A stretch of DNA of 64,000 bases, from the NCBI GenBank assembly GCA_028279405.1, contig JANQNU010000060.1:1-64000 (forward strand), read 5' to 3'. This DNA is from Phycisphaerae bacterium (GTDB taxonomy: Bacteria; Planctomycetota; Phycisphaerae; UBA1845; Fen-1342). The notes beneath the pieces were generated by a model. That model was given only the letters and a program-made list of their open reading frames with translations. It did not search any database and was not told the DNA's origin. This document shows, in pieces, positions 1,302-56,474 of this stretch (its first letter is position 1; each line of letters begins with the position of its first letter). The position numbers were made by a program, and so were the translations under genes.

Positions 1302-1733
1302 GTGTTTCAAAAACGACTTTGTCCCGCCATGGTCGCCCTGGTTCTGATGTCCTGGGCCCCGGCGACGCTGGCGCAAAACTTCGATGTTTCGTGGTACACG
1401 ATCGATGGGGGCGGCGGAACGAGCGCCGGCAGCGGGTTCGCCGTCACCGGCACGATCGGCCAGCCGGACGCGGGTGTGATGGCGGGTGGCGGTTTCGAGA
1501 TCAAGGGCGGCTTCTGGCCCGGACCGCAGTTCGTGGGCCCGCCGATGCCCGGCGACCTCGACGCGGACGGTGATATCGATCTCGACGACTACAACGCGTT
1601 CCTCGCCGCCTACGGCAGCACCGTCGGCGATCCGGCCTACAACCCCAGCGCCGACTTCGACGGTGACAACTTCATCGGCATGACCGACTTCGGCATCTGG
1701 TACGGTCATTACCTGGCCTTCGCCAACAGCTAG
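1302..1733 (+). CDS. Small secreted protein with dockerin-like calcium-binding C-terminus
   Basis: A 143-residue exported protein. Start is GTG with a GAAAGGA ribosome site about 8 bases upstream. Residues 1-25 form a signal peptide ending in TLAQ. Residues 26-80 are a glycine-rich segment (GGGGTSAGSGFAVTGTIGQP) common in planctomycete secreted proteins. Residues 86-140 hold two Asp-rich loops (DLDADGDIDLDDY and ADFDGDNFIGMTDF) resembling the duplicated calcium loops of dockerin type I or EF-hand modules. Such modules probably anchor the protein to a surface scaffold or fold in response to calcium. It stands alone on the plus strand after the fibre-like gene, with a hairpin 31 bases after the stop. 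No catalytic domain is visible. Confidence 0.8.
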   Translation: MFQKRLCPAMVALVLMSWAPATLAQNFDVSWYTIDGGGGTSAGSGFAVTGTIGQPDAGVMAGGGFEIKGGFWPGPQFVGPPMPGDLDADGDIDLDDYNAFLAAYGSTVGDPAYNPSADFDGDNFIGMTDFGIWYGHYLAFANS

Positions 1734-1763
1734 CCGTCGGCTGACGCAATAGCGGAAACGGTG

Positions 1764-1783
1764 GGTGGGGCGTTTGCCCCACC
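1764..1783 (+). terminator. Hairpin downstream of the small dockerin gene
   Basis: A perfect 8-bp stem (GGTGGGGC / GCCCCACC) with a GTTT loop lies 31 bases after the stop at 1733. No T-run follows, so it is a weak intrinsic terminator candidate or an mRNA 3' end protector. Confidence 0.4.
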
Positions 1784-1882
1784 TGCTCGAGCTGGTAACG
1801 AACGGCTAGCGACGAGTCACCTTCCTCTGTAGGCCACGCCTGATTGCATCGGGGTGTCTCTTGTCAGGCGTGGGTGCTCCGA

Positions 1883-1918
1883 GACGGGGCCGGGAGCAGT
1901 GCTCGCTCCCGCCCCGTC
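1883..1918 (+). terminator. GC-rich hairpin in the duplicated leader, copy A
   Basis: A 14-bp stem (GACGGGGC, one bulged C, GGGAGC, pairing with GCTCCCG/CCCCGTC) has a 7-base loop and is followed by TATTATT. It is preceded at 1834-1873 by a second stem (CCACGCCTGA / TCAGGCGTGG). Both are conserved in copy B, where they follow the dockerin stop. Here no intact gene ends just upstream, so the element was probably carried along with the duplication. Confidence 0.55.
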
Positions 1919-2190
1919 GCTATTATTCGCATCCGTCGTGCGCCAAGCGCGTCATCTGTGCGCGCCTGTTCCCCCCCCCGCATCCGGCCATCCGCGATCG
2001 CCACACTGCGTCCATGATTGCGGCAGGCCATCAGATCAAATCCCGTCCCACGCCTCCGGCGTTGCTAAAAAACTGCATTCTCCTACCAGCCTCAGTCCGA
2101 GAGCGATCTAAGACGCCAAATGCGGGTGCGGCAGACGTTGCGACTCGGGTAGACTCAGTGTGTGTTGTTCGGGAAGCGGGCGCGATTGTT

Positions 2191-2196
2191 TACAAT
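2191..2196 (+). promoter_or_regulatory. Candidate -10 element of kinase copy A
   Basis: TACAAT lies 45 bases before the chosen GTG start. It sits in a short block (TTGTTCGGGAAG, then TTACAAT) kept in copy B although the surrounding leader has diverged. A TTGTTC 20 bases upstream is a poor -35 match. Support is by conservation only. Confidence 0.35.
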
Positions 2197-2240
2197 GGCA
2201 ATCGCCCAGGCGGTTCCGAGCTGGGAAACGAGGATCTGGC

Positions 2241-4649
2241 GTGAATCCATCTGAACGATACCAACTCGTGCTGACACTCTTCGATCAGGCATGTGACCTA
2301 CCCGCGAACGACCGCGCGCAGTTCCTGGCGGAGCACTGCACGGACCCGGAGGTGCGGAGCGAAGTCGACCAAATGCTGCGGCACAGCGAGGGTACGGACG
2401 CATTCGTGGATGCCTCCGATCCGGGTCGTGGTCTGAACCGGATGGCTGCCGACGTGCTGGGTGACGACGATGCCGATGCCCCGATGCCGGAACGGATCGG
2501 CCGCTACGTCGTGAAGGGCCTGATCGGTCGCGGGGGCATGGGGATCATTTACGAGGCGGAGCAGGAGTCGCCGAAACGGCGCGTCGCGATCAAAGTGCTG
2601 CAGCCGTCAGCGGTGAGCCGGATTCTGCTGCTGCGGTTCCAGCACGAGGCGCACATTCTCGGCCAGTTGCAGCACCCGGGAATCGCACAGATCCACGAAG
2701 CAGGTTGGGCGGAAATGCCGCACGGCCGCCAGCCGTACTTTGCGATGGAGTTCATCGACGGGGCGCCGATCGACGAGTTCGTGCAATCCAGCGGGCTACG
2801 CGTTCAGGAGATCCTGGAGCTGGTGGCGCGTGTCTGCGATGCCGTTCAGCACGCCCATCAAAAGGGCGTCATCCACCGCGATCTCAAGCCAAGCAACATC
2901 CTGGTCGTTCGACGGGAAGACGGTCAGGGTACGCGCGGCGCAGGTACGCGGACGGATTCGTCGGGCACGAGCAGCTACGCCAACGACAGCATCGGGCAGC
3001 CGAAGGTGCTGGACTTCGGGATTGCGCGCATCACGGACGCCGACCTGAAAGCAGTAACGGTTCAGACCGAGGTCGGGCAGTTGATCGGCACGCTGGCCTA
3101 CATGAGTCCCGAACAGGTGAGCGGCCGTTCGAACGACCTCGATACGCGCTGCGATGTCTACGCGCTGGGTGTGGTGCTCTACGAGTTGTTGACTGGCAAG
3201 CGACCGCACGATCTGACCGGGCTGGCGATGGCCGAAGCGGCGCGCGTCGTGTGCGAGCAGGAGCCGCCGGGGTTAGCGCAGATCGATCGTCGATTGCGCG
3301 GCGACATTGCGACGATCGTCGCGAAGGCGATGGACAAGGATCGCGATCGGCGCTATGACACCGCGGCCGAGTTGGCGGCGGACATTCGGCGTCACCTTGC
3401 GCATCAACCCATCCAGGCGCGCGCGGCTGGTACTTTCTATCAGTTGAGCAAGTTTTCCCGGCGCAACAAGGGGCTGGTCGCTGGAATGGCGATGGCATTC
3501 GTCGCGCTGGCGCTCGGATTGGTGGGCACGACCGTAAGCGCCATCCGGGCCAACGAAGAGAGTGCCCGCGCCAAGCGGGCTGTGGAAGATGTAGAGCTTG
3601 TTTCCACATTTCAGCAGGGCATCGTTCGCAACATTCGCCTGCCCGATATGGGACGTTTGATCCTGGATGAGGTCGCGAAGCAGCATTCGGATCGCGGCGG
3701 CTCAGCCGAACTGGCGGCGGCGCTGGAGATGCTGAATGCCACGAGCATTTCGCGCGCGGTCATCGATGGGAGCATCTTGACCCGGGCTTCCGCAGCGGCT
3801 GACAAGGAGTTTGCCGGGAGTCCGGTGCTATGCGCCGACATCCACGAATCGATAGGCAGTACGTATCACGCACTGGCCATGTACGAGCCCTGCCTGCGCG
3901 AGATGCGGCGCGCGTACGAGATTCGGCGGGAGCATCTTGGGGATGACCATCCGAATACGGTATCAGTGCTAAGCAATATCGCGACTTCCTTGGTCATGCT
4001 TCGGCGATTCGCAGAGGCCAGCCCGGTTAGGGAAGAAGTGCTGCGCCGCCGGGCGGCGCTGGACGAGGACGATCCGCTGCTCTTGGAGGCACGCGTACAC
4101 CTTGCAGACATTCAGCGGTTGCTCGGCCGACTGGATGAGGCAGAGGCCGAGCTCGCATCTCTGGTCGAAGTATGCCGGCGGATCCTTCCGCCGGACAGTT
4201 ACCTGCGGCTCTACGCAATGGAGACGCTCGGGGCCATCTATGCCCAAACCAACCGGCCGGATGAATCGCTGGCCCTTCGGCAGCAGGTGCTGAAGGCCCG
4301 TCGGGAGTATTATCCCCACGACATCAAGACCTTGGGCGCATGGAGTCAGGTTGCACTAACGCTTTTCCATTTGGGGCGCTACGACGAGGCGGAGGCTTCC
4401 AGTGCCGAGCTGCTCGAGTATGCCGAACATCGCTTGGGCGATCACGATCCACGAACGCACCTGATTTTGCATTGTCTTGCGCATTCCCGTGTTCGGCAGG
4501 GCAAGCTGGAAGCGGGTCGCGCCAATTTCGAGACGTTGCTTCAACGCCAGCGAGAGGCGCTTCCGGCGGAGCATCCCATCGTGCGGAAGACTACGCAAGA
4601 ACTCGCCGACGTCGTTCGTCGGATCGAGACGGAATCCGAAACCGAATAG
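2241..4649 (+). CDS. Membrane Ser/Thr protein kinase with TPR sensor region (copy A)
   Basis: An 803-residue eukaryotic-type Ser/Thr kinase. GTG at 2241 is preferred to the upstream open-frame start because GAGGATC lies just before it and copy B begins at the same codon. Residues 1-85 are a helical N-terminal segment seen in planctomycete kinases. The kinase domain (about 89-385) has glycine loop IGRGGMG 95-101, lysine 118, HRD 212-214, DFG 258-260 and SPE 289-291, so it should be active. A Ser/Thr/Gly-rich insert of about 30 residues separates the catalytic loop from DFG. One membrane helix (about 411-432) is followed by a C-terminal TPR region of about 360 residues that should lie outside the cytoplasm. 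No sigma gene adjoins it. It is a paralogue of 53499-55910 (kinase part nearly identical) and of 12523-15666. Confidence 0.93.
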   Translation: MNPSERYQLVLTLFDQACDLPANDRAQFLAEHCTDPEVRSEVDQMLRHSEGTDAFVDASDPGRGLNRMAADVLGDDDADAPMPERIGRYVVKGLIGRGGMGIIYEAEQESPKRRVAIKVLQPSAVSRILLLRFQHEAHILGQLQHPGIAQIHEAGWAEMPHGRQPYFAMEFIDGAPIDEFVQSSGLRVQEILELVARVCDAVQHAHQKGVIHRDLKPSNILVVRREDGQGTRGAGTRTDSSGTSSYANDSIGQPKVLDFGIARITDADLKAVTVQTEVGQLIGTLAYMSPEQVSGRSNDLDTRCDVYALGVVLYELLTGKRPHDLTGLAMAEAARVVCEQEPPGLAQIDRRLRGDIATIVAKAMDKDRDRRYDTAAELAADIRRHLAHQPIQARAAGTFYQLSKFSRRNKGLVAGMAMAFVALALGLVGTTVSAIRANEESARAKRAVEDVELVSTFQQGIVRNIRLPDMGRLILDEVAKQHSDRGGSAELAAALEMLNATSISRAVIDGSILTRASAAADKEFAGSPVLCADIHESIGSTYHALAMYEPCLREMRRAYEIRREHLGDDHPNTVSVLSNIATSLVMLRRFAEASPVREEVLRRRAALDEDDPLLLEARVHLADIQRLLGRLDEAEAELASLVEVCRRILPPDSYLRLYAMETLGAIYAQTNRPDESLALRQQVLKARREYYPHDIKTLGAWSQVALTLFHLGRYDEAEASSAELLEYAEHRLGDHDPRTHLILHCLAHSRVRQGKLEAGRANFETLLQRQREALPAEHPIVRKTTQELADVVRRIETESETE

Positions 4650-5068
4650 CCAGCGAGCTCGCATGGAGCATTTCCGTGCTGGCCGTTCGCGCGCCATGTC
4701 GCATCTCGGCGACGGCGTCGACCGCGGCATCAGGCCGCGACGTTTTGCCCCTGGGCGTCGCGGGAGCGCCCGGTCGTACCGATTACCAGCCGACGCGCCG
4801 AGTCGCCCAGGGTGGCCCTGTTGGCGCCCACCGCAAAAAACCGGACAGGCGAAATAAGTCTGTCTCCAACCGCGGCTGTTCCCGCCGCCCTCACCAGCCA
4901 TCCTGGCCAGGAAGGAAGCACACGCCTAAGCGTGAGTCTTCGCTTGGCACAGTCTCTTTGGGATGACTTTGTTGGAAAGGACGCCCAGCCCCACCGATTA
5001 GCGATGTTTGTCGATCTGTCGCCGACCAGTTCGCTATGGCGTGACTGGGCTACGCACCGTCCGCGCGA
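4650..5068. other. Gene-free convergent spacer
   Basis: This spacer lies between two kinase genes that converge. The first 45 bases still resemble the sequence after copy B. A short hairpin CACGC-CTAA-GCGTG lies near 4922-4935. A stretch near 4900-4920 (CCAGGAAGGAAGCA) recalls the SRP RNA tip but lacks the rest of that structure. No convincing gene is seen. Confidence 0.5.
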
Positions 5069-8000
5069 TTAGCCTGGCGCGCGCCAAACCGTGACGGTTC
5101 CGTCGTGAAAAGCACCCGCGATCGACTGGCCGTCAGGGCTGATTGCTACGCTCCAGCACGGCATAGCGCGGCGCGCGATCGCATACAGCATAGAACCGGT
5201 CTCCGCGTTCCAAAGCACTACTGTTCCATCTTCGTCGCATGAAACCAGGCGTGAGCCATCAGCACTGAATGCCACGCACCAGATCGTATTCGCATGGCCG
5301 TCGTCGTGCATGGTCTTGAGTATCTCGCCTGTTTCGCTGTTCCAGACGTAGATTGTTCGATCCACACCTGCGGTTGCGATCGTCATGCCGTCCGGGCTGA
5401 AGGCCACCGAGGTCATTTCGCCGCGAACTGGAGTCAGTTGCAGGAGCACCTTGCCGCTGTGTGCGTCCCACACCATCACCCGGACTCCACCAGCGGAAGC
5501 AAGCTTGTCTCCGTCCGGGCTGAATGTGACGTCGTACGTCCCCCATGAAGCAGAGTGGCCCTTCAATAACGAACGTGGTTCGCTCCTTTCCAGGTCCCAG
5601 ATGCGAACGACGTTGTCTCTTCCGGACGAAGCGAAACGTGTTCCATCGGGACTGAACGCGACCGAATACAGGCCTTCCTTATCGGCGACGAAGTCAGCGC
5701 GGACCTCGCCCGTCATCGCATCCCACGCTGTGATCGTGCTGCCGCCGCCGACGAGAATGCACTTACCGTCGGCCGAGTAATCCACCCCGCGACCGCGTCG
5801 TCCCTCCATTGACAAGAAGACAGCGCCCGTTTCGGTATCGAAGATACGCACCTTGCCGTCGTCGCCTCCGGTCAGAATACGCGTTCCGTCGGGACTGAAC
5901 GCAACTGAGCGGGCGGGACCGGAGTGGGCGTCGATTGTCAGATCGTCGTACGGCGACCGCACATCCCACACTCTGATCCCGTCCAGACCCTGCGTCGCGA
6001 GGCGCCGACCATCGGGGGAAAACGCGACGGTGTATACACGATCAGTGTGTCCCAACATGCTCAGGATCGAGGATCCGCCCTTATCCGACCACAGATGGAC
6101 ACACCGTTCGCGACATGCCGTGGCGAGCAGCCTGCCGTCGGGGCTGAACGCGACGCCGGCTACCGATGAGCGATCGGCTCGCATCGATCGCACGGACCGA
6201 CCGGAATCGGCATCCCAGTACGTTACCGTGCCGTCCTGATTCCCGGTGACGATCCGGCGACCGTCGGGAGAAAACGAAAGTGAGTAGGTTGTTGTTCCCG
6301 CGACGGTCAACACGTGCCGTAGTTCGCCGCTTGCCGCATCATAGACGTGGGCGCTGGACCAGTCCTGTGATTCCTCGGTGAGATAAGCGGCACACGCGAC
6401 AAATCGCCCGTCCGGGCTGAATGCGACCTCGCGCAGTTTATGGCTGTGGCGCTTCTCGAAAACCAGCGCGCCCGTAGATGCATCCCTGACGCGCAGGAGT
6501 CCGTCGAAGCTCAACGTGGCGACGAGCTCGCGGCGCGGGCCGATCGCGAGTTCGCCGATCGTCTTGCCGTGGGCCCGAGGAACGGACCAAAGCATGCTCT
6601 GCGAACCGACGTCCCACAGCTCGAGCGTCTGTTCGGCGTCGCTGGCCAGCACCCATTGGCCGTCAGCGCTGATGGAAACTGCGGTGAGCCCGGCGCCTTC
6701 TTCCCGGAAGCACCGCCGTAGCGCGCCCGTCGCCGCATCGTGGACGTAGATGGATGGATCGTTAAGCTCCTGGCCGAGCGAGATGATGAACCTGCCGTCC
6801 GGCGTGAACTGTGGCTTACCTCTCCCGGGAAACGCGATACCGCCCCGGTCGGACGCGCGCCAGCGCAACCGTCTCCATTCCCATTTCCGACACTGGCTCG
6901 GGCATTCCGCGAGCGCTTCGTGCGCGTGCTGAATCTGCCTCGACTGTAGGAAGAAATCCGCAAGCCGGATGCTGGAGTCGCACAGTCGCTTGGCGAGGGC
7001 AGCCCCCTGAGCGTCGGCCCGATTGCGCTGCACGATGGTCTCCCGATGCGCCCGCTCGGACCGAACGTAGAGCCAGGAAAAGGCGATGACGCCGCTCGTC
7101 ATGAGTACGAGAATGCTCATTGCCGCCGCGAACAAGCGCTTGTTGCGACGAATGACCTTGCGGATCCGCTGATGCACACTCGGCGAGGACGCGAGCACCG
7201 TCTCGTCATTCAGATGACGTCGGATGTCGGCGGCAAGCTCGGAAGCGGACTGGTAACGACTCGCCGGTTCCTTCTCCAATGCCTGATGCGCGACGGCGTC
7301 GATTTCGCCCCGAAACATCGATTGAATCGAACCCAATGGCGTCGGGTCTTCTTCGCGAATGATGCGGGCGGCCTGAGTAATCGATCGGCGACTCAGATCG
7401 AACGGCAGCTTGCCGCTGACCAGCTCATACAGGATGACGCCCAGCGCGTAGATGTCGCTACGCGTATCGAGCATCCGCGAATCTCCGAGCACCTGTTCCG
7501 GGCTCATGTACGATAGTGTGCCGATGAGTTGGCCGACTTCGGTTTGCAGAGTTGCCCGCGAGGCACCTGCGTCGGTAGCCCGAGCCACGCCGAAGTCGAG
7601 GATCTTCGGTTGCCCCAGACTCTCGAAACCGGTCGGTTCGGCGCGTCCAACCGCCGGCTCGCGGTCGACGACCAGTATGTTGTCCGGCTTGAGATCGCGG
7701 TGGATGATTCCGTTTTGATGAGCGTGGTTGACGGCGTCGCAGATGCGCGCCACGAGTTCGAGCCGCTCACGAACGCCCAGTTGATGCCGGGATGCGTATT
7801 GGCGCAGCTCGAGGCCATCGATGAACTCCATCGCGAAGTACGGCTGGTGCCCGGACTCGGTCTCGAGCATTCCGGCTTCGTAGACCTGCGCGATACCAGG
7901 ATGTTGAAGCCGACCGAGCAGGTCCACCTCGAGCTTGAACCGGCGCAGCGCACTGGAGGAGCGGGCTCCCGGGCGGATCATCTTGAGTGCGACGCGGCGA

Positions 8001-8326
8001 TACGGATGCTGCTGCTCGGCCAGATAGACGGCGCCCATCCCGCCCTGACCGATCTTTCGCAGGATGCGAAAACGCTCCTGCTGCTGCGAAAGCACCGGAT
8101 CAGCGACGTCGTCCGCGAAGGATCCGAATTGTTGTCCTGCACGAAGGGCGTGCTCGTCGAGCGGATCGCCGCGCTCGTCATTATGGCGCAGCAGCGCTTC
8201 AACCTCGGCGCGCAGCGCCGAGTCGTCGCCGCAACGGTCGGCCAGCAATGCGTTACGCTCCGGCGCCGACAGATCGTAGACTTCCATGAAAACACGGGTC
8301 ACGAGTTCGTGGCGCGCGCGATCCAT
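5069..8326 (-). CDS. Membrane Ser/Thr protein kinase with 14 WD40 repeats
   Basis: A 1085-residue protein. The kinase domain (about 86-372) has IGQGGMG 92-98, lysine 115, HRD 209-211, DFG 244-246 and SPE 275-277, all intact. A membrane helix lies at about 399-421. From about residue 480 to the end there are fourteen blade-like units, most carrying FSPDG, ISADG or close variants, which fits two seven-bladed propellers. The propellers should lie on the far side of the membrane from the kinase and bind a ligand or partner. The ATG is two bases after the stop of the ECF sigma gene upstream and has no strong ribosome site of its own, so translation is probably coupled. The kinase likely controls that sigma factor, as in other planctomycete sigma/kinase pairs; the target is inferred. 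Confidence 0.93.
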   Translation of the reverse strand: MDRARHELVTRVFMEVYDLSAPERNALLADRCGDDSALRAEVEALLRHNDERGDPLDEHALRAGQQFGSFADDVADPVLSQQQERFRILRKIGQGGMGAVYLAEQQHPYRRVALKMIRPGARSSSALRRFKLEVDLLGRLQHPGIAQVYEAGMLETESGHQPYFAMEFIDGLELRQYASRHQLGVRERLELVARICDAVNHAHQNGIIHRDLKPDNILVVDREPAVGRAEPTGFESLGQPKILDFGVARATDAGASRATLQTEVGQLIGTLSYMSPEQVLGDSRMLDTRSDIYALGVILYELVSGKLPFDLSRRSITQAARIIREEDPTPLGSIQSMFRGEIDAVAHQALEKEPASRYQSASELAADIRRHLNDETVLASSPSVHQRIRKVIRRNKRLFAAAMSILVLMTSGVIAFSWLYVRSERAHRETIVQRNRADAQGAALAKRLCDSSIRLADFFLQSRQIQHAHEALAECPSQCRKWEWRRLRWRASDRGGIAFPGRGKPQFTPDGRFIISLGQELNDPSIYVHDAATGALRRCFREEGAGLTAVSISADGQWVLASDAEQTLELWDVGSQSMLWSVPRAHGKTIGELAIGPRRELVATLSFDGLLRVRDASTGALVFEKRHSHKLREVAFSPDGRFVACAAYLTEESQDWSSAHVYDAASGELRHVLTVAGTTTYSLSFSPDGRRIVTGNQDGTVTYWDADSGRSVRSMRADRSSVAGVAFSPDGRLLATACRERCVHLWSDKGGSSILSMLGHTDRVYTVAFSPDGRRLATQGLDGIRVWDVRSPYDDLTIDAHSGPARSVAFSPDGTRILTGGDDGKVRIFDTETGAVFLSMEGRRGRGVDYSADGKCILVGGGSTITAWDAMTGEVRADFVADKEGLYSVAFSPDGTRFASSGRDNVVRIWDLERSEPRSLLKGHSASWGTYDVTFSPDGDKLASAGGVRVMVWDAHSGKVLLQLTPVRGEMTSVAFSPDGMTIATAGVDRTIYVWNSETGEILKTMHDDGHANTIWCVAFSADGSRLVSCDEDGTVVLWNAETGSMLYAIARRAMPCWSVAISPDGQSIAGAFHDGTVTVWRAPG

Positions 8327-8328
8327 GC

Positions 8329-8898
8329 TCAGTCACCGGACTCGAGCGCTCGGCGAAGCCAAGCGCGGGCGAGTTGCCACTCACCCGCCGCTGTGCGCTC
8401 GCTGATTTCGAGTACGTTCGCCGCCTCGGCGACGGTCATACCCCCGAAGAACCGCAGCTCCACGATCTGTGCGTGCCGCTCGTTCAGTTGAGCCAACTCC
8501 TGCAACGCCTCGTCGACATCCAACGCGTCGAAAATTCGGTCCGAACCGTCGCTGCCGTACCCGGTCAAAGCGACCTCGCCCCAGTCGCCGCCACGTTTCG
8601 CTGCCCGTCGGGACCGGGCATGGTCAGCTAGCACATTGCGCATGGCCCTAGCGGCAACCGCGAAGAAGTGTGATCGGCCGTCCCACTCGATCGCCGCGTT
8701 GCGGACGAGCCGCAGGTAGGCTTCGTGAACCAGGGCCGTTGGCTGGAGGGTGTGATTTCCGCGCTGCTGAGCGAAGTAGGACTGCGCGAGCGCCCGCAGC
8801 TCCTTGTAAACAACTGCCAGCAATCGGTCGGTGGCTTCCCGGCCGCCTTGCCGTGCGTCCGCAATCAGACGCGTCAATTCACTCGATGAAGGATCCAC
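8329..8898 (-). CDS. ECF-type sigma factor (TIGR02999-like)
   Basis: A 189-residue sigma-70 family regulator. GTG at 8898 is chosen because GGAG lies 7 bases upstream; the longer open frame starts with a segment that does not resemble the family. Region 2 contains ALVHEAYLRL and the RAMRNVLADHARSRRA block typical of this planctomycete/acidobacterial group. Region 4 (AQIVELRFFGGMTVAEAANV and the following SERTAAGEW) is the promoter -35 binding helix-turn-helix. It is the first gene of a two-gene operon with the WD40 kinase. No anti-sigma factor is present, so the kinase is the likely regulator. It is divergent from the gene at 9196, leaving about 300 bases for both promoters. Confidence 0.93.
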   Translation of the reverse strand: MDPSSSELTRLIADARQGGREATDRLLAVVYKELRALAQSYFAQQRGNHTLQPTALVHEAYLRLVRNAAIEWDGRSHFFAVAARAMRNVLADHARSRRAAKRGGDWGEVALTGYGSDGSDRIFDALDVDEALQELAQLNERHAQIVELRFFGGMTVAEAANVLEISERTAAGEWQLARAWLRRALESGD

Positions 8899-9195
8899 AC
8901 CCGGACTCCGCAGCCTGCATAGCACGCCCGTTTCGTTGCCCAATGATAGCGAATTCCGGTCGCCGACTCGACGATAACCGCTGACCTGACAGGAGATTGC
9001 AGCCCGGCGCACAGCGTTTGTGGAACCGGCGCTCGCAAGCACGCGAAGTCGAGGATCCGCCGAAAATCTGCAGCCTTCGCGCCCCTTTTTCGAGATCCGA
9101 CTGACGCTGGATCGTCGCTTCGACGCGCGCGGCGAACCGCGGGACTGCGAATTGGAAGAACACCTTAAATAGCAATGCCGGAAAGGAGCACGACC

Positions 9196-45687: not shown

Positions 45688-46475
45688 AATCGCTCTCCTG
45701 TGGAACGGCGATGTGTGTTTTGGAAAATGGAGCGAGATCGATGATCGCGGCTCCACACGCACATCACTTGCTAAACCATAGGCCAATCACAACTACATTT
45801 TTTGTAGACACGTGGCGGTGATCAACCATCTCCGATAATGCAGCCGAAAAGAGGCGGCGTGATTGCGCAAAAAAAAGACCTTGGATCAAGGGCCGCGCGA
45901 GTCGACGACGTACATCGACAAGATGGCATTCATCTGGAGCGGTCAAAAAAAGTAATATGACGACGTGAATTCGCCGGACGTGACGGGGACCGTGACCGTG
46001 TTATTACAAAAAGCGCGGCACGGTGATGCTCAGGTGATGAATCAGCTATTCAACTACGTATACGACGATTTGCGCTGCATGGCCGTGGGCGAAGAGCGGT
46101 GCGCAGCAGGTGATCGACGGGATAGCCCTGGTTCACGCCGCCTGTGCCCGCTTGCTTATGCACGATTCGCTTGATGCGGATAGCGGATCGTCCTGGCCTG
46201 TCTGGTCGTCTTGGCGTTGATTCTGGTTCAGCTGCCGGCCGTTTGCGGCGACAACACGCTCGCCGGATCGGCCATGAGCCGGATGTGGACGATCGCACGA
46301 TCTCAGCGACCTCGAAATCCGGCTTGGCCGGTCGGGGCGGATGACCCTGATTCTCTACTCTATTTTTACGGGTTGGTGCCTTCTCGGTTGTTTACGGGGT
46401 GAAGGCCCTGCGGTTCGCAGTCGGCTGGACGACCCGAATACACCCGACAAACCTGACTATCAAAAGGACACCGAC
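45688..46475. other. Intergenic region holding a broken sigma gene
   Basis: Outside the sigma remnant (45965-46180) there is an AT-rich stretch near 45770-45960 (with a CTACA/TGTAG hairpin around T6 near 45795) that could hold promoters for both neighbours. Near 46190-46260 the plus strand reads a hydrophobic stretch (VLACLVVLALILVQLPAV) without a start codon. No intact gene is seen. Confidence 0.5.
45965..46180 (+). pseudogene. ECF sigma factor N-terminal fragment, frameshifted
   Basis: The first frame (GTG at 45965) reads VTVLLQKARHGDAQVMNQLF followed by NYVYDDLRCMA, the region before sigma region 2. Similarity then moves to another frame: QQVIDGIALVHAACARLL, matching the family hallmark ALVHEAYLRL. 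A frameshift between about 46090 and 46110 breaks the gene, and region 4 is absent downstream. Confidence 0.65.
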
Positions 46476-49400
46476 ATGATTCGGAAAGGACATCCCTCTA
46501 CCTTCACACTGATGACATTGCTGGCCGGGCTGGCCGCATTCGTCGCTGCCGCGAAAGCCGAAACAATCACCTGGCAAGGAACCTCCAACAGCAGTTGGGG
46601 GAACGCCGCGAACTGGTCGCCGGCCCGGGTTCCCGGAAGCGGGGACGTGGCCGTTTTCCCGAGCGGCGTGACGAACAATTCGATCAACCTCAACGGCAAT
46701 CGCGTCGTCGGCGCGATCGACTTCGCCAACGGTGCGCCGAACTACACGATCAATGGCAACAACGCGCTGACCCTCGAATCCGGGACCGTGAACGTCAGCT
46801 CCGGCGGTGCCATCCACACGCTCAACTGTCCAGTCGTGCTGATGGCTTCCGACCGCTGGACGGTTTCCGGCGCGTCGCAGCTCATTGCCAATGGCGTCGT
46901 CAGCGAGAACGGCGGGAGCTTCGGCATCGACAAGCGTGGCAACGGCCGGCTGACGCTCAACGCCGAGAACACGCTCACCGGCTTGGTCGAGATCCGCGGC
47001 GGCGCGATCGAGGTAGGCACTAACCGCGCGTTGCAACACAACACCATCGAATTGACCGGGCCGGACCAACTGTTCTTCTCGGCGAACGCCCCGAACGGCG
47101 TGATCGGGAACTTGAGCGGCAGTGGCGACTACAACACCGGCACCACGGCGCTGACCCTCGGCGGCAACAACGAAGACGTAACCTATACGGGCGTACTGAG
47201 CGGCAGCCAGGACATGACGAAAGTCGGGACCGGGACCTGGATCCTGACCGGCGACAGCTCAAGCTATCGTCGTACCATCGACGTGTCGGAAGGAACACTG
47301 CAACTCGATGGATCGCTCGGGAGTCAGAGCCAAGACAGAATCTGGGTGAGCCCGGGTGGCACACTTTCCGGCGTCGGCACGGTTGCAAACATCAAACTGG
47401 AAGGCGGCACGATTTCGCCCGGTAGCCCACTGGGCACGCTGAACACCATTTTTGATTTTGAGTTTGCTTTCACAGGTCTTTTTCAAGGCGAAACCGTTCT
47501 ATTCGAACTGGGCGGTACGACGCAGGGCGTCGACTACGATTCCTTCTACGCCGGGGAAATCTTCGCTGCCGCGCAAGCCCGGATCGTGATTCGCTACGTG
47601 AATGGATTTACGGCTTCACCAGGCGACGAGTTCGTCATTGCCGAGGCCGGTAGCGTGGTCTTCCACGAAGGGGAGGTCGAGTTTCCCGACGATCAAGGCT
47701 GGTACCTCATTCAGCAGAATCAAGGCGATGTGCACCGCCTCATCTTGCGCGTCTGCAACGAACTCGGTGTCGACTGCAACAGCAACGGCATCCCGGACCT
47801 GTGCGAACTGGACCAGGACGGCGACGGTGTCCCGGACGATTGTGATCTTTGCCCCGGGAGCGACGACACCCTCGACGACGACGGCGACGGTGTCCCGAAT
47901 GATTGCGATAGCTGCCAAGGCGACGACGCCAGCGGCGACAGCGATAACGACGGCATCTGCGATTCGGACGACATCTGCCCCGGCTCAGACGACGCCGGTC
48001 CTGACGGCGACGGCGACGGCGTTCCCGACGCTTGCGACTTTTGCGCCACCACCGAAACCGGCGACATCGACGGCGACCGCGACATCGACTTCGACGACTT
48101 GGCCGGATTCGACGCTTGCCTGACCGGGCCCGGCGTGCTCGCCAACGGCGCCTGCAACTGCTTCGACGCCGACGGCGACGGCGCGGTCACACTCGCCGAC
48201 TACGCCATCATTCAGGCGGCTGCGAGCGGCAGCGGCGTCATCGCGGAAGGCCCCGGCGAAATCAACATCGAAAACATGATTAACGGCGTCAGCGATTGGG
48301 GCTTCGCCATCCTCGGTCAGAACGGAGACGACTTCGCCGGCTACTCCGTCGCGATGATTGACGATCTCAACGGCGACGGCCTGAGCGAGATGCTCATCGG
48401 CGCTCCTTCCTGGGGCGGCGGTCAGCGCCGTCGAGCGGGTCGCGCCTACGTCGTCTACGGCCGCACCGACCTGCAAAACGTCGTGCTTTCTGATATCGCA
48501 GCAGGCATCGGCGGGTTCGCGCTCGAGGGCGAGTTCGGTCGCTTCGATCACGATTTTGCGATTGCGGAGATCGGAGAAGAATGGGTCAACGATGAGGGCC
48601 CCGACGGCGAAGGCGCCGGATTCGCCGTGGCATCGGCCGGCGACGTTAACGGCGACGGCCGCGCCGACATGCTGATCTCGGCACCATACGCCCCCGTCAA
48701 CGGCAACGAGCCCTGGGGTGGTCGCACGTATGTCGTATTCGGAAGTGACGACCTCGCCAGCCCGGCCCCGCTCGACCTGGGCGCCATCACCGCACCGGGT
48801 GCCGGCGGCGGCTTCTTTATCGAGGGTGTGCGCGGACGCTGCCTGCTCGACACCCCATGCGCCAATGCCCGCGGTGCCAGCAGCAGCGGCGACCTCGCCG
48901 GCTGGTCAGTCAGCGGCGCACGTGACGTCAACGGTGACGGCCTCGCCGATGTTGTCATCGGTGCTCCCCTCCGTGTCCAGAACGATCGCGGTTCGGGCTA
49001 CGTCGTCTGGGGTACTGCGGATACCGCGACCATCTCTCTCGCAGATGTGGAGGAAGACCCGGCGCTCGGTTTTAGACTCAGTAGCTCCACCGATCCCACG
49101 CGGCACGACCGGTTTGGGCACCGCGTTTCAGCGCTCGGCGACTTCACGGGTGACGGATTGGCCGACGTGCTCGTCCAGGCTTGGGCGCTCGGGCAGTTTC
49201 CTGCGTTCCTCACGCACGGTCGCGCCAATGGGTCCCCAGTCGACCTGACCACGGCGACGCCAGACCTCACGGTACTCGATCCCGGGTTCCGCGAGGAGCC
49301 CCAGAGCGGGGGTCTGATACTGGGCCGGCCATTCGCCGGAACTCCCGCGCAATGCGCAGGCGACTTCAACGGCGACGGTCGCGTGGACTGGGTCGCATCC

Positions 49401-52154
49401 GTTGTCAACATTCAGGAACAGCCCAGCGTCGTCCGCAACGAAGTCTACGTAATCTTCGGTAGCGCTGATGACGTCGGTACCACCATCGATCTCGATGATC
49501 GTTTCGGTATCTACAACGACACGTTCGCGACGCCGGATCGTGGCGTCAAGATCGTGTTGTCGGACTTCGACACCGTCGAAGAGTGGCGTTGGGAGATCAG
49601 CTCGGTCGGCGACGTCAACGCCGACGGCTTCGACGATCTCGTCATCGGTATGGGCAATCGTACCGCCGTCGTGTTCGGTCGGCCGGATTCGGTCGTCCTC
49701 GATTCCGCTACGGCGCTCGACGGCCAGCAGGGATTGCTCATCAGCGGGTCCGAGCCAGACGATCAGCACGGCTGGTCGGTAACGGCTGCGGGCGACATCA
49801 ATGGCGACGGCATCAACGACATCCTGATGGGGGCACCGCTGGATGATACCATCGACGTCGACGCCGGCGGCGCCTACCTGGTCTACGGCACCGACTTCAA
49901 CGGCGCCATCACCCACCACGGCACCGACGCGCCGGACGTGATCACTGGAACAGCCGGTGCCGACAACATCGTCGGCGGTCGCGGCAGCGATATCGTGACC
50001 ACCGACGGCGGCGCGGACACCGTCTACCTCGGCGCCGGCGATGATACCGTGATCCTGACCGATACCGACTTCCACCGCCTGCGAGGCGGCCCCGGTCTCG
50101 ATACGATTCGCATCTCCGACAGCGCGACGCTCGACCTCGAGGCCCTGCGCGGCCGTATCGAAGGCTTCGAGCAGATCCAGCTGCTGAGTGGCGGCGCCGA
50201 CATCGTGTCGATCCGCACGATCGATGTCCTCAACATGAACGCAACGAGCAACGACCTGACGATCACGGGCGCCGGCGCGCTCATCGCGCTCGGCGATAAC
50301 TGGGTCCGCGACCTTGGCTTCGCAACCGGCGGTAGTACCCTCATCAAGTTCACCGACGGCCGCGCCGAGCTGTACGTCGACGAACAGATCTCGTTGCGAT
50401 TCTCGCCGACGGTCACAACGACGGCAGTCAGCGTCGCCGAGAACAGCCCCGTGGACACCTCGGTCGGAATGATCGGGGCCGTCGATCCGGACGGCGGCAC
50501 GGTCGTCAGCTTTGCGATTGTCGGTGGCGATGGCCAGGGAACGTTTGCGATCGACGCCGACACCGGCGAACTCACCGTGATCGGTGCGATCGACTTCGAA
50601 ACGCATCCGACCTACACGCTCCAGATCGCCGTTACCGACAACAGCGGCGACATCGGCACACGCACGGTCTCCGTCAACGTCATCGGCGTCAATGAGGCGC
50701 CGGTCTGGACGGTCCAGGATTTCGTTGCCACGCTTGCTGAGCACGCTCCGACCGGTACATCGGTGGGTACATTCACCGCGGTCGATCCGGACGTCGGCGA
50801 CTCGGTGACCTACTTCATCGACGTCGAGGACGCGTCGTTGACGTCGCCGGCGCTGCTGGGCGCGTTCGCGATCGATGCGACCACCGGCGAGCTGACCGTC
50901 GCCGACGGTACGCTGCTGGATCGCGAAGCGAGTGAGATGCAGCAGTTGCTGGTCTACGCCCAGGATACCGAAGACCTGCGATCGGTTCCGAGCCTGGTCT
51001 CGATCACGCTCGACGACGTGCAGATGTGGCAAATCTCGCTCTCGTCCGCGTTCGTCACGACCGGCGCGAGCATGTGGGATACGGATGGCGCTGTCCTTCC
51101 TTCCACGCTGATGTTCGAGCAGCGCATCGACGGCTCCGATAGCGGCGCGCAAAACGCAGAGTTTCTCGGTGTCGACGTCTCGGTCGACGTCGAGGGCGCG
51201 CTCGAGTACTCCGCGGCGATTACAACCGGCCCCGGTAGCGTCGACGCGAATGTTCCTTTCGAGGCAGAGCTGTCGATCGACGACGAGATCGCGCTCGGGC
51301 AGCCGTTCATGATCGACTTCGACGTGTCGAACCTTGGTGATCCGACGCTCTCGGGCACGACGCCGAACGTTGATATGGACCTTCTGCTCGAGCTCGACGA
51401 ATTCGAAGTGTTGACAAGCTTCCGCAACTTCGGACCGTGGAGCGGCAGCAACAACGGTGAAGAGTACCTCGTGTCGGGCTTTCAGGATTCCTGGGAGGCG
51501 ACGGTTCAACCAGACGGCTCGCTTTCGACCGGTTCCTTCCGTACGACCCTGCTTCGGCTGGGCCAGCTCGACTGGGACTCCTACCTGCTCACGTTCCTGG
51601 AGCTTGCTGATCTGCCGGCCAACGAAGGCACGTTCGACGTTACCAGTATCCCCGGTTTCAACGTTGAGGTGCAGTACATTCTCTGGACGATGACGATCAC
51701 GGGCGCCTTGCACCTCGACCAGGAGCTGAGTCTGGATGTCGACGGTTATCAGGCAACGATCGTCTTCGAGAACGGCGACTCGCAGCCGCTTACCGTGGAC
51801 GGTGCGACGCAAGTCACGCTGCCGACGGATGCCGATACCAACGATGACGGTCGCGTCGATTTCGAAGTGCACATCGACGTTGATACGACCTTCTCGAACT
51901 ACAGCGACTATGTGGGCACGCTGACGCCCAGGTCAACGAAGGGCTACCTGCACATGACTGGCTTCTCGACCGACGTCCCCGGCCCGCCACAAGAAGCTGA
52001 GATCGGACCGGTGATCGATATCGAGGTCCCGGTCGATATCGGCGACGACGATGCCGGCGTGCCGACGCCCTGGCCCTCCGGCGAGACCGGACAGTTCCCG
52101 CTCGGCGGCTTCAACACCGTCGTGATGACCGGCTCGATCGACTTGATGAACTGA
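46476..52154 (+). CDS. Giant mosaic surface protein: autotransporter-type strands, FG-GAP, RTX-like, cadherin
   Basis: A 1892-residue protein. ATG 46476 (AAAAGGA 7 bases upstream) opens a signal peptide (MTLLAGLAAFVAAAKA). Order: autotransporter-associated beta-strand repeats (about 30-360; GNGRLTLNAENTLTG, VGTGTWILTG); calcium-rich TSP3-type loops (about 428-530; DQDGDGVPDDCDLCPG); a dockerin-like segment (530-590); FG-GAP integrin-like repeats (600-1145; AGDVNGDGRADMLISAP); a short RTX-like segment (about 1148-1195; GGRGSDIVTTDGGADTVYLG); two cadherin-type domains (about 1310-1510; VDPDGGTVVSFAIVGGDGQG); and about 380 C-terminal beta-rich residues without a known match. No hydrolase motif is seen. 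It is probably a calcium-stabilised adhesin or cell-cell contact protein. It is followed 69 bases later by a dockerin-type protein, perhaps its partner. Confidence 0.88.
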   Translation: MIRKGHPSTFTLMTLLAGLAAFVAAAKAETITWQGTSNSSWGNAANWSPARVPGSGDVAVFPSGVTNNSINLNGNRVVGAIDFANGAPNYTINGNNALTLESGTVNVSSGGAIHTLNCPVVLMASDRWTVSGASQLIANGVVSENGGSFGIDKRGNGRLTLNAENTLTGLVEIRGGAIEVGTNRALQHNTIELTGPDQLFFSANAPNGVIGNLSGSGDYNTGTTALTLGGNNEDVTYTGVLSGSQDMTKVGTGTWILTGDSSSYRRTIDVSEGTLQLDGSLGSQSQDRIWVSPGGTLSGVGTVANIKLEGGTISPGSPLGTLNTIFDFEFAFTGLFQGETVLFELGGTTQGVDYDSFYAGEIFAAAQARIVIRYVNGFTASPGDEFVIAEAGSVVFHEGEVEFPDDQGWYLIQQNQGDVHRLILRVCNELGVDCNSNGIPDLCELDQDGDGVPDDCDLCPGSDDTLDDDGDGVPNDCDSCQGDDASGDSDNDGICDSDDICPGSDDAGPDGDGDGVPDACDFCATTETGDIDGDRDIDFDDLAGFDACLTGPGVLANGACNCFDADGDGAVTLADYAIIQAAASGSGVIAEGPGEINIENMINGVSDWGFAILGQNGDDFAGYSVAMIDDLNGDGLSEMLIGAPSWGGGQRRRAGRAYVVYGRTDLQNVVLSDIAAGIGGFALEGEFGRFDHDFAIAEIGEEWVNDEGPDGEGAGFAVASAGDVNGDGRADMLISAPYAPVNGNEPWGGRTYVVFGSDDLASPAPLDLGAITAPGAGGGFFIEGVRGRCLLDTPCANARGASSSGDLAGWSVSGARDVNGDGLADVVIGAPLRVQNDRGSGYVVWGTADTATISLADVEEDPALGFRLSSSTDPTRHDRFGHRVSALGDFTGDGLADVLVQAWALGQFPAFLTHGRANGSPVDLTTATPDLTVLDPGFREEPQSGGLILGRPFAGTPAQCAGDFNGDGRVDWVASVVNIQEQPSVVRNEVYVIFGSADDVGTTIDLDDRFGIYNDTFATPDRGVKIVLSDFDTVEEWRWEISSVGDVNADGFDDLVIGMGNRTAVVFGRPDSVVLDSATALDGQQGLLISGSEPDDQHGWSVTAAGDINGDGINDILMGAPLDDTIDVDAGGAYLVYGTDFNGAITHHGTDAPDVITGTAGADNIVGGRGSDIVTTDGGADTVYLGAGDDTVILTDTDFHRLRGGPGLDTIRISDSATLDLEALRGRIEGFEQIQLLSGGADIVSIRTIDVLNMNATSNDLTITGAGALIALGDNWVRDLGFATGGSTLIKFTDGRAELYVDEQISLRFSPTVTTTAVSVAENSPVDTSVGMIGAVDPDGGTVVSFAIVGGDGQGTFAIDADTGELTVIGAIDFETHPTYTLQIAVTDNSGDIGTRTVSVNVIGVNEAPVWTVQDFVATLAEHAPTGTSVGTFTAVDPDVGDSVTYFIDVEDASLTSPALLGAFAIDATTGELTVADGTLLDREASEMQQLLVYAQDTEDLRSVPSLVSITLDDVQMWQISLSSAFVTTGASMWDTDGAVLPSTLMFEQRIDGSDSGAQNAEFLGVDVSVDVEGALEYSAAITTGPGSVDANVPFEAELSIDDEIALGQPFMIDFDVSNLGDPTLSGTTPNVDMDLLLELDEFEVLTSFRNFGPWSGSNNGEEYLVSGFQDSWEATVQPDGSLSTGSFRTTLLRLGQLDWDSYLLTFLELADLPANEGTFDVTSIPGFNVEVQYILWTMTITGALHLDQELSLDVDGYQATIVFENGDSQPLTVDGATQVTLPTDADTNDDGRVDFEVHIDVDTTFSNYSDYVGTLTPRSTKGYLHMTGFSTDVPGPPQEAEIGPVIDIEVPVDIGDDDAGVPTPWPSGETGQFPLGGFNTVVMTGSIDLMN

Positions 52155-52223
52155 CAAATCTGAACCCAACCGCGACCGGCGGCTTGCCGCTGCCGGTCGC
52201 CTTCTCCGAAAGGAACGGACATC

Positions 52224-53066
52224 ATGAAACGCAACACTCTCATCCCCAGCGTCTTGATACTGGCCAGCGCGGCCGTGGCGTGTGCCCAAACCGTAACGGT
52301 TTCGCTTGAATCGCCGCAACGCGGTCAGACCGTGGAACCGGCGAGCGTCATCGAGTGGGAAATCACCGTGTCGGTCTCGACAGGTGACAACGAAGGACTG
52401 GCGCTGTTTCACACCGATCTGGTTCAGTCGCCGAACAATCCCGCGACGCTCGATTTGTCACCGGCTGGCGGCGTACCCGCGGAATTGGCGAACTTTGCCC
52501 GTCCGCTCGGGATCTCGAACCCGGGCCCGAATGGCACGGACGGCTATGTCGGGCTCGTGCAGGGCTCGGACGGCGCGCGCAATCTGGTACAGATCGGCGG
52601 CGGTCAGAACAGTTTCGGTCAGGCTATGCCGGTCGGCACAGGTGTCGGCGAGAGCGCCGAGGTCGTCACCGGCGTCGGACATGCTGCCCCCGTGACCATT
52701 GCGAGCGGCACGTTCGTCGTGCCGAGCACGGCCGGCACGTATACCTTCACGCTTGAGAACGTCCAGGCCAACGTCCTGACTGCGATTGGTGCTGTCGATG
52801 CGGTTTCGCGTGCAGCGTCGGCGACGCTCGTTGACGCCGAGCCGTTGACGTTCGAGGTGCAGACGGAAGCGGTACCGGGCGACATGAACTGCGACGGCGC
52901 GGTCTCGGTCGGCGATATAAACCCGTTCGTGCTGGCCTTGACCAACCCGACGGGCTACGCCGACCAGTTCCCGGATTGCAACCTGCTCAATGGCGACTGC
53001 ACCGAAGACGGGACGTTGACGGTGGGCGACATCAATTGCTTCGTCGAGCTGGTAACGAACGGCTAG
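52224..53066 (+). CDS. Secreted protein with dockerin-type C-terminus
   Basis: A 280-residue protein with an AAAGGA ribosome site and a signal peptide ending ACAQ (about residue 22). Residues 23-205 form a beta-rich module (TVTVSLESPQRGQTVEPASV and the later GTFVVPSTAGTYTFTLENVQ) common in planctomycete secreted proteins. The C-terminal 65 residues have paired calcium-type loops (PGDMNCDGAVSVGDINPFV and NGDCTEDGTLTVGDINCFV) as in dockerin type I. Its final codons (ELVTNG) and stop are the left edge of the duplicated kinase block, and a copy of them is stranded at 1787. It follows the 1892-residue surface protein and could dock to it or to the same scaffold. Confidence 0.85.
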   Translation: MKRNTLIPSVLILASAAVACAQTVTVSLESPQRGQTVEPASVIEWEITVSVSTGDNEGLALFHTDLVQSPNNPATLDLSPAGGVPAELANFARPLGISNPGPNGTDGYVGLVQGSDGARNLVQIGGGQNSFGQAMPVGTGVGESAEVVTGVGHAAPVTIASGTFVVPSTAGTYTFTLENVQANVLTAIGAVDAVSRAASATLVDAEPLTFEVQTEAVPGDMNCDGAVSVGDINPFVLALTNPTGYADQFPDCNLLNGDCTEDGTLTVGDINCFVELVTNG

Positions 53067-53139
53067 CGATGAATCACATTCCTCTGTAGGCCGCGCCTGA
53101 TTGCATCGGGGTGTCTCCTGTCAGGCGTGGGTGCTCCGA

Positions 53140-53174
53140 GACGGGGCCGGGAGCAGTGCTCGCTCCCGCCCCGT
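53140..53174 (+). terminator. GC-rich hairpin after the dockerin gene, copy B
   Basis: GACGGGGC, bulged C, GGGAGC pairs with GCTCCCG/CCCCGT; TGCTATTGTT follows. It is preceded at 53091-53130 by a stem (CCGCGCCTGA / TCAGGCGTGG) in which one A-T pair of copy A has become G-U. Here it follows the dockerin stop by 74 bases and is a plausible terminator. Confidence 0.6.
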
Positions 53175-53448
53175 TGCTATTGTTCGCGTCCGTCGTACGC
53201 CGAGCGTGTCGTCTCCGCGCGCCAGTTCCCCGCCCCCGATCATCCGCGATCGCCGCATTGAGTCCAAGCTTGCAGCCGCGCCATCACGTCGAACCCCGTC
53301 CCACGCCCACGATATTGCTAAAAAAAACGGCATTCTCCCACGAGCCTTAGTCCGAAGGACGATCTGAGCGCCCTAATCCACGGTCGTGCCGAGCGTCGCG
53401 ACTCGGTAGATTCGGCGGGGTGTTGTTCGGGAAGGGGGTGCGATCGCT

Positions 53449-53454
53449 TACAAT
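53449..53454 (+). promoter_or_regulatory. Candidate -10 element of kinase copy B
   Basis: TACAAT in the same conserved block as in copy A (TTGTTCGGGAAG, then CTTACAAT), 45 bases before the GTG start. Supported by conservation between the copies only. Confidence 0.35.
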
Positions 53455-53498
53455 GATAATCGTCTAGTTCGCTCCGAGCTGCGTGACGAGGATCCAGC

Positions 53499-55910
53499 GT
53501 GAATCCGTCTGAACGACACCGACTCGTGTTGACGTTGTTTGATCAGGTATGTGAGCTCCCCGCGAACGACCGCGCGCAATTCCTGGCGGAGCATTGCCCG
53601 GACCCGGAGGTGCGGAGCGAGGTCGGCCAGATGCTGCAACACAGCGAGGGCACGGATGCCTTCGTGGATGCGTCCGATCCAGGGCGTGGTCTGAACCGGA
53701 TGGCAGCCGACGTGCTGGGCGACGGCGATGCCGATGTGCCGATGCCGGAGCGGATCGGCCGCTACGTCGTGAAGGGCATGATCGGCCGCGGCGGCATGGG
53801 GATCATCTACGAAGCGGAACAGGAGTCGCCGAAACGGCGCGTCGCGCTGAAGGTGCTGCTGCCGGCGGCCGTGAGTCGGATTCTCCTGCTGCGGTTCCAG
53901 CACGAGGCGCACATCCTCGGCCAGTTGCAGCATCCGGGAATTGCACAGATCCATGAAGCGGGTTGGGCGGAACTGCCGCACGGTCGCCAGCCGTACTTTG
54001 CGATGGAGTTCATCGACGGCGCGCCGATCGACGAGTTCGTGCAAACAATTGGGCTGCGTGTTCAGGAGACGCTTGAGCTGGTGGCGCGCGTCTGCGACGC
54101 CGTTCAGCACGCCCATCAGAAGGGCGTCATCCACCGCGATCTCAAGCCAAGCAACATCCTGGTCGTTCGGCGGGAAGACCGTCAGGGCACGCGCGGCGCA
54201 GGTACACGGACGGATTCGTCGGGCACGAGCGGCCATGCCAACGACAGCATCGGTCAGCCGAAGGTGCTGGACTTCGGAATCGCACGCATCACGGACGCCG
54301 ACCTGAAAGCAGTTACGGTTCAGACCGAGGTCGGGCAGTTGATCGGCACGCTGGCCTACATGAGCCCCGAACAGGTGAGTGGCCGTTCCAACGATCTCGA
54401 CACACGCTGCGATGTCTATTCGTTGGGCGTCGTGCTGTACGAGTTGTTGACCGGCAAGCGACCGCACGATCTGACCGGGCTGGCGATGGCCGAAGCGGCG
54501 CGTGTTGTGTGCGAGCAGGAGCCGCCGGGGCTGGCGCAGCTCGATCGTCGGTTGCGCGGCGACATTGCGACGATCGTCGCGAAGGCGATGGATAAGGATC
54601 GCGATCGACGCTACGACACGGCGGCCGAGTTAGCGACGGATATTCGCCGGCACCTTGCGCATCAACCTATCGAGGCCCGGCCGGCGGGTACCCTTTATCA
54701 GCTGGGCAAGTTTGCGCGGCGTAACAGGGGGCTCGTCGCTGGGATGACCACGGCGCTCGTCGCGCTGACGCTGGGGTTGGTGGGTACGACCGTGAGCGCT
54801 ATTCGCGCCAACGAAGAGAGCGCCCGCGCCAAGCGGGCCATGGAAGATGTGGAGCTCGTGTCCGGCTTCCAGGGGGGCATGGTCCGCAACATCCGCCTTC
54901 CCGACATGGGGCGTTTGATCCTGGATGAGGTCGCGAAGCAGCTTATGGATCGCGGCGGCTCAGCGGAGTTGGCGGCGGAATTGGAGACGGTTCAGGCTAC
55001 GAGTCTTGCACGGGCAGTGATCGATGGGAGCATATTGTCCAGGGCTTCCACTGTGGCTGACGAACAGTTCGCCGATAGCCCGGTGATTCGCGCGGACATC
55101 CTCGAATCGTTGAGTACGACCTATCACTCACTGGCCATGTACGAACCCTGCCTGCGCGAGATGCGGCGGGTGCTGGCGATTCGCCGGGAACACCTCGGAG
55201 ACGCCCATCCGGACACGATCAAGGCTCTGGGTAGCGTCGGAAGCGTATTGATGAATCTTCGTCAATTTGCGGAGGCGGAACCTGTTCTGAAGGAGGCGTT
55301 GCAGCGCCGCCGAGCGACACTGGACGAGCATGATCCGATGGTCTTCGAGGCGCGCATGCGGCTGGCCGAACTCCGGTTGCGGATTGGACCACTGGATCAG
55401 GCCGAGGCTGAACTCAAGTCGTTGGTCGAATTCGGCCAGCGAGTGTTTCCACCGAGCCATCGCCCGCTGCTCTATACGATGACGAGGCTCGCGGCCGTCT
55501 ATGCCCAGACCAACCGGCCCGCTGAGGCGCTGGCCCTCCGGCAGCAGGTGCTGGAGACTCGACGGAAGTTCCATGACGACGATCTCGAAACCCTTGCGCT
55601 ATGGAATCAGATTGCACAGACGCTTTCGAAATTGCAGCGCTATGACGAGGCAGAGGCATCTAGCAAGGAACTACTCGAACTTGCTGAACATCTTCTGGGT
55701 GATGATGATCCGCGGACATGCCTCGTGTTGGCCGGCCTTGCGCGGACCCGCCTCCGGATGGGCAAGCTGGAGGAGGGCCGCGCTGATTACGAACGTCTGC
55801 TCGAACGACGGCAGCGCGCGCAACTCGAGCAGATTCCGATGATTCAAACAGTGGAGCGCGAGCTTGCGGACCTGATTCGTCGGCTCGAGACACAACCCCG
55901 TACGGAATAG
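53499..55910 (+). CDS. Membrane Ser/Thr protein kinase with TPR sensor region (copy B)
   Basis: An 803-residue twin of the kinase at 2241-4649. GTG start with GAGGATC a few bases upstream. The motif positions equal those of copy A (glycine loop IGRGGMG 95-101, lysine 118, HRD 212-214, DFG 258-260). Across the kinase domain the two differ at few residues, and even the Ser/Thr/Gly-rich insert before DFG is nearly the same. Beyond the membrane helix (about 411-432) the TPR part differs at roughly four residues in ten by eye, with a shared core (NIRLPDMGRLILDEVAKQ and LAMYEPCLREMRR). The change is concentrated in the likely sensor. No sigma gene adjoins it; a dockerin-type gene lies upstream and a small unknown gene converges from downstream. 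Confidence 0.93.
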   Translation: MNPSERHRLVLTLFDQVCELPANDRAQFLAEHCPDPEVRSEVGQMLQHSEGTDAFVDASDPGRGLNRMAADVLGDGDADVPMPERIGRYVVKGMIGRGGMGIIYEAEQESPKRRVALKVLLPAAVSRILLLRFQHEAHILGQLQHPGIAQIHEAGWAELPHGRQPYFAMEFIDGAPIDEFVQTIGLRVQETLELVARVCDAVQHAHQKGVIHRDLKPSNILVVRREDRQGTRGAGTRTDSSGTSGHANDSIGQPKVLDFGIARITDADLKAVTVQTEVGQLIGTLAYMSPEQVSGRSNDLDTRCDVYSLGVVLYELLTGKRPHDLTGLAMAEAARVVCEQEPPGLAQLDRRLRGDIATIVAKAMDKDRDRRYDTAAELATDIRRHLAHQPIEARPAGTLYQLGKFARRNRGLVAGMTTALVALTLGLVGTTVSAIRANEESARAKRAMEDVELVSGFQGGMVRNIRLPDMGRLILDEVAKQLMDRGGSAELAAELETVQATSLARAVIDGSILSRASTVADEQFADSPVIRADILESLSTTYHSLAMYEPCLREMRRVLAIRREHLGDAHPDTIKALGSVGSVLMNLRQFAEAEPVLKEALQRRRATLDEHDPMVFEARMRLAELRLRIGPLDQAEAELKSLVEFGQRVFPPSHRPLLYTMTRLAAVYAQTNRPAEALALRQQVLETRRKFHDDDLETLALWNQIAQTLSKLQRYDEAEASSKELLELAEHLLGDDDPRTCLVLAGLARTRLRMGKLEEGRADYERLLERRQRAQLEQIPMIQTVERELADLIRRLETQPRTE

Positions 55911-55978
55911 CCGGCAAGCTCGTATGGGGCAGTTTCGTGGGCTCCGTCGCGCAGGCATTCCGTCCGACTTGGTGATTC

Positions 55979-56359: not shown

Positions 56360-56474
56360 ACATAATGACTGCCTTCATCGACAGGCGATCTCTCAGTAGT
56401 AATCCGATTGCTTTCGCAAGGCATGAAATGTACTATCGCCTTGGAGCGGATTTCCAGGGCCGAAGGGTGTGGGC

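Follow-up and report, generated by a model that had tools for sequence, protein, structure and literature searches.

Partial gene conversion between old paralogues is already known from archaea and bacteria, and the kinase gene pair described here appears to be a case of the same kind. The conversion of mtrA-1 and mtrA-2 in methanogens has been followed over many genomes, one of the copies having gained a distinct domain (PMC4632066). That system resembles ours in that the paralogues are old and repeated conversion keeps one domain similar while the other part differs; it is unlike ours in that here a single genome is concerned, both halves of the genes are homologous, and the presumed conversion extends to noncoding DNA and a stranded gene end. 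RF1-RF2 conversion in bacteria is likewise limited to part of two diverged paralogous genes, but its direction is supported by phylogenetic evidence, whereas the present case offers divergence steps only (PMC4530459). The particular feature of our locus is the stranded gene end, which labels the source.

In Planctomycetota, Ser/Thr kinases that carry TPR or WD40 arrays have been described as having undergone lineage-specific expansion (PMC11032199). Our kinases share this architecture and phylum-level setting, with dozens of paralogues in the genome, but that study concerns gene families, and its abstract and outline do not treat the breakpoints of single duplications. The "planctosome" proposal concerns cohesin/dockerin modules of Phycisphaerae (PMC6461901). 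That proposal places dockerin-type modules in secreted proteins of this class, and here paired Ca-loop-like repeats stand at the C terminus of many proteins; unlike there, the modules go unrecognized by Pfam or NCBIfam, and the likeness comes from reading the sequence.

The window, meaning the whole stretch of 64,000 nucleotides analyzed, belongs to a planctomycete-group bacterium and carries a 2.9-kb kinase segment in two copies, A and B, 51 kb apart (Table 1). Compared with itself by BLAST, it contains one dominant direct repeat, 1787 to 4540 and 53044 to 55801 (82.7% identity, bit score of 2425, E value of 0). In the full alignment, similarity starts abruptly at 1787 and 53044 with 26 identical bases, TCGAGCTGGTAACGAACGGCTAGCGA, and fades just past the stop codons of both kinase genes; identity is about 82% overall but uneven along the repeat, from 95% to 62% per 100 bases. 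A sequence-only reading of the window had described direct repeats of about 2.9 kb, 51 kb apart, whose first 26 bases are identical and encode ELVTNG-stop, and the self-comparison and base-by-base alignment bear this out. Of the extents that it gave, 1787 to 4695 and 53044 to 55955, the left ends hold, but the right ends lie 15 to 20 bases too far, recognizable similarity reaching to about 4677 and 55941. The flanks of A and B are unrelated on both sides, as expected of a dispersed segmental direct duplication.

Table 1. Features of the two repeat copies and their neighbors in the window
Feature	Position	Strand	Basis
Secreted-type gene, 143 aa, C-terminal EF-hand/dockerin-like repeats; left neighbor of copy A	1302..1733	+	ORF; paralogues C59 82%, C46 83%
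GC-rich hairpin behind 143-aa gene, terminator-like, without T run	about 1761..1784	+	RNA fold
Stranded ELVTNG-stop codons of dockerin-like gene, left end of copy A	1787..1809	+	identical to 53044-53066
Zone 1 of copy A: dockerin-gene tail and 3' hairpins, 3.8% from B	1787..1917	+	change-point analysis; homologous to C38
Region ahead of the kinase A gene, where zone 2 begins	1918..2240	+	17-40% from B per stretch
Kinase A (Ser/Thr kinase part, TPR half), 802 aa	2241..4649	+	Pkinase E 2e-37, TPR_12 2.4e-29; 79% aa identical to B
Zone 3 of copy A: TPR half and last stretch of kinase part; synonymous sites 41% from B	3350..4646	+	change-point analysis
Right end of copy A, last bases recognizably similar to B	4650..4677	+	alignment
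Surface-type protein, 1937 aa (FG-GAP, cadherin, RTX repeats), upstream neighbor of dockerin-like gene	46341..52154	+	Pfam
Dockerin-like gene, 280 aa; native 3' end is left end of repeat	52224..53066	+	ORF; C38 copy 87% aa identical
Zone 1 of copy B: native tail and 3' hairpins	53044..53174	+	divergence zones, homology to C38
Kinase B (Ser/Thr kinase part, TPR half), 803 aa	53499..55910	+	Pfam
Right end of copy B	55911..55941	+	alignment

Both copies encode a bacterial Ser/Thr kinase with TPR repeats, with Pkinase and TPR matches above cut-off, the kinase part N-terminal and the TPR half C-terminal. The best start of the kinase A reading frame is a GTG at 2241, matching 53499 in B. The genome has dozens of related kinase loci; none comes as close to A or B as these two do to each other, the runner-up reaching 52% over the full length. 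When kinase B was compared broadly with GTDB genomes, distant relatives only were found (best, about 52%), the nearest records coming from Phycisphaerae and other Planctomycetota, and at the DNA level the repeat was absent from all 100 relatives searched. Could the C-terminal half have been swapped in from another kinase? This was rejected, since A and B are the best matches of each other in both halves separately. Pairs of a sigma factor gene and a Ser/Thr kinase gene lie directly beside both copies (5069 to 9042, minus strand; 56469 to 59827, plus strand), one of the kinases carrying WD40 repeats.

Where does the shared left end belong? In B, ELVTNG-stop closes the ORF at 52224 to 53066 (six codons and the stop), which is named dockerin-like after two Ca-loop-like repeats (DxNxDG-type) read in its sequence; for type I dockerin (Pfam PF00404) it has no match above cut-off, Pfam and NCBIfam both being silent. 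A third copy of B's left side is found on contig C38 of the same genome, which matches the window from 48227 to 53173 at 79% (4.9 kb). This match takes in the last part of the 1937-aa gene, the dockerin-like gene in full, and the stop and hairpins behind it, and then ends, with no kinase after it. In G011, a genome of another genus of the same family, a gene of the 1937-aa type and a dockerin-like gene stand in the same order. The ending VGDINCFVxLVTxG-stop terminates about 20 other genes of the genome and is the usual C terminus of the dockerin-like family; among the family genes read, ELVTNG is limited to B and C38. These observations agree with the earlier view that the codons are the true end of the dockerin-like gene. 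In the sequence past the stop codon, 5 of 107 sites distinguish A from B, and 30 of 105 distinguish it from C38. Because of the C38 copy, the gene order in G011, the roughly 20 gene ends with the same motif, and these site differences, the tail in A must have come from a B-type locus, most simply B itself. Another dockerin-like gene as its origin was rejected, since, of those found, only C38 also has ELVTNG and related hairpins and it lies 29% from A, against 5% for B.

The 1937-aa surface-type gene upstream belongs to a multicopy family, with members in the window (46341 to 52154), on contigs C38, C48, C46, and C55 of this genome (G000), and on C17 of G011; identity to the window copy is 70% for C38, 67% for C48, and 42% for G011. 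The C38 paralogue (L161, G000:C38:37588-43350) has two in-frame stops, TGA and TAG, in the search alignment and may be decaying. Kinase genes lie near several family copies, just upstream on C48, about 4 kb off on C55, and divergently in G011, which hints at a functional link.

In A, the tail stands alone between the hairpin of the unrelated 143-aa gene, which stops at 1733, and the shared hairpins, and it continues no dockerin-like ORF; the sequence preceding it is indeed unrelated, as had been proposed. The 143-aa gene itself matches Dockerin_1 at an E value of only 0.08, below the PF00404 cut-off. Its surroundings, the left flank of A from 746 to 1740, recur on contig C59 (81.6%), and part of them, 1128 to 1736, on C46 (85.9%). 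At both sites, homology to the flank ends ≤7 bases from the stop of the 143-aa gene, and neither the tail nor a kinase follows directly; in the alignment, C59 has its own equivalent hairpin at the same place. For the right flank, no paralogue was found in the genome, nor any site with the left and right flanks of A joined. The left flank thus exists elsewhere without copy A, but these loci do not amount to true empty sites, the right flank having no paralogue and none of the 100 relatives carrying the repeat. The end of the Peptidase_S74 gene and the 143-aa gene (746 to 1740 in the window, C59, and C46) make up another segmental duplication. A second widespread C-terminal module beside the dockerin-like one, FGIWYxHYLxFAxS, is carried by the 143-aa gene and by two adjoining C38 genes (L082, 71 to 1132 and 1282 to 3345).

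With the tail native at B-type loci and stranded in A, source and target of the dispersed duplication can be told apart. The sequence-only reading had named B the source and A the recipient, which the tail of C38 and the tailless A-type flanks of C59 and C46 support at the level of a B-type locus. It had also seen no transposase beside the segment, and none occurs among the flanking genes scanned; neither a target-site duplication nor a terminal inverted repeat rises above shuffles. A transposon-borne duplication was rejected on these grounds. A different history would place a B-like block of upstream gene, dockerin-like gene, and kinase at A from earlier times, everything ahead of the final 23 bases of the dockerin-like gene having been replaced by the duplicated Peptidase_S74 and 143-aa block that now lies on the left. 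The scar would then be a truncation mark and not the edge of an inserted copy, and later gene conversion would be compatible with it. Such a replacement is consistent with the left block being itself duplicated at C59 and C46, with the upstream-gene/dockerin block being duplicated at other loci (C38), and with the joined flanks of A being found nowhere, but it needs an extra event, and A retains no remains of the upstream gene or of other parts of a dockerin-like gene. We regard it as conceivable though on the unlikely side, and insertion at A is preferred over a truncated larger block for its economy.

Did copy A arise in one insertion event, as originally claimed? The divergence along the repeat makes this too simple. 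At near-neutral sites, defined as noncoding sites and, in codons for a shared amino acid, synonymous third positions, A and B differ in three steps: 3.8% (1787 to 1917), 22% (1918 to 3347), and 41% (3350 to 4646). In change-point analysis, a single break gained 25 log-likelihood units and two breaks, near 1917 and 3350, gained 40; in 300 permutations, a single break never gained more than 7.8. Because near-neutral divergence thus differs about tenfold along the repeat, parts of it were probably re-copied later. The repeat shows the pattern that gene conversion between paralogues would leave: sharply bordered stretches with little near-neutral divergence, within a pair that is otherwise more diverged.

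A single duplication from B to A would suffice if selection alone had made identity uneven, zone 1 and the kinase domain being conserved and the TPR half relaxed. Protein divergence is as expected of catalytic and sensor halves (dN of 0.02 versus 0.25, with 0.2 to 0.5 in zone 3), and the zone 1 hairpins keep their pairing at two A/B differences (G-U for A-U or G-C, as read in the alignment). However, synonymous sites differ twofold as well, fourfold sites diverging by 0.20 in the kinase part and 0.44 in the TPR part, and the older kinase pairs of the genome, at 0.51 to 0.71 and 0.59 to 0.73, respectively, have no such gap, so that a domain-specific codon constraint is not supported either. Zone 1, moreover, drifts freely between A/B and C38. 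Because its 29% difference from C38, 30 of 105 sites for either copy, approaches the 34 to 35% at fourfold sites of the adjoining genes, zone 1 is not itself strongly conserved. Selection as the sole cause is distinctly improbable, and we infer that recombination made the steps and that 1787 is the original left end. Relaxed or diversifying selection may still have sped up the divergence of zone 3, although the rise is seen at its synonymous sites as well.

The low divergence of zone 1 also invites the opposite order of events, in which an old pair of kinases was homologous from near 1918 and zone 1 came later, through a separate recombination that had its anchor in the upstream region of the kinase and an illegitimate end within the dockerin-like gene. 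Two observations fit: the divergence of zone 1 is about six to ten times below that of the rest, and at fourfold sites zone 3 differs more between A and B (0.44) than B and C38 do from each other (0.34 to 0.35). Yet it would have to be chance that the old homology begins so near the terminator's end, unless it was overwritten, and we consider this order unlikely. That zone 1 moved to A as an independent mobile or regulatory element is hardly credible: its 131 bases do form strong hairpins, but it was found only three times in the genome, twice following an intact dockerin-like gene, matches no Rfam family, and was not found in the 100 relatives. A mobile element or regulatory RNA was rejected on these counts.

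We therefore return to duplication followed by conversion, to which we assign a probability of roughly 0.58: an old duplication with copying from B to A, and then patchwise gene conversion, at least twice, from the 5' side. The segment at B, comprising the dockerin-gene tail, 3' hairpins, kinase upstream region, and kinase-TPR gene, would have been copied long ago to A, 51 kb off, its left end falling inside the last codons of the dockerin-like gene. Later homologous recombination between A and B would have re-copied an older tract, roughly 1787 to 3350, and more recently a tract of roughly 1787 to 1917, leaving the TPR half to diverge. Against this account, polarizing the tracts would take a close outgroup, the evidence on zone 1 comes from three sequences, and the end of zone 1 coincides approximately with the end of homology to C38, a border that also fits a selected module boundary. 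It would be a long shot that the 131-base tail-hairpin piece serves as an anchor or hotspot of repeated conversion between the kinase loci, most recent at the 5' end and of variable reach; if it does, a leftover gene end and terminator maintains the similarity of the kinase halves, the TPR sensor halves meanwhile diversifying.

The process is an ordinary one, and the locus is an instructive example that is unusually well dated internally. Whole-gene identity can misdate such duplicates, which calls for caution. Kinase families of Planctomycetota may grow in this way, by ragged-ended segment copies that carry a neighbor's last codons as a label of origin, with conversion refreshing parts of them later. 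Other stranded codons of this sort could be sought among the kinase and dockerin-like genes that abound in these genomes.
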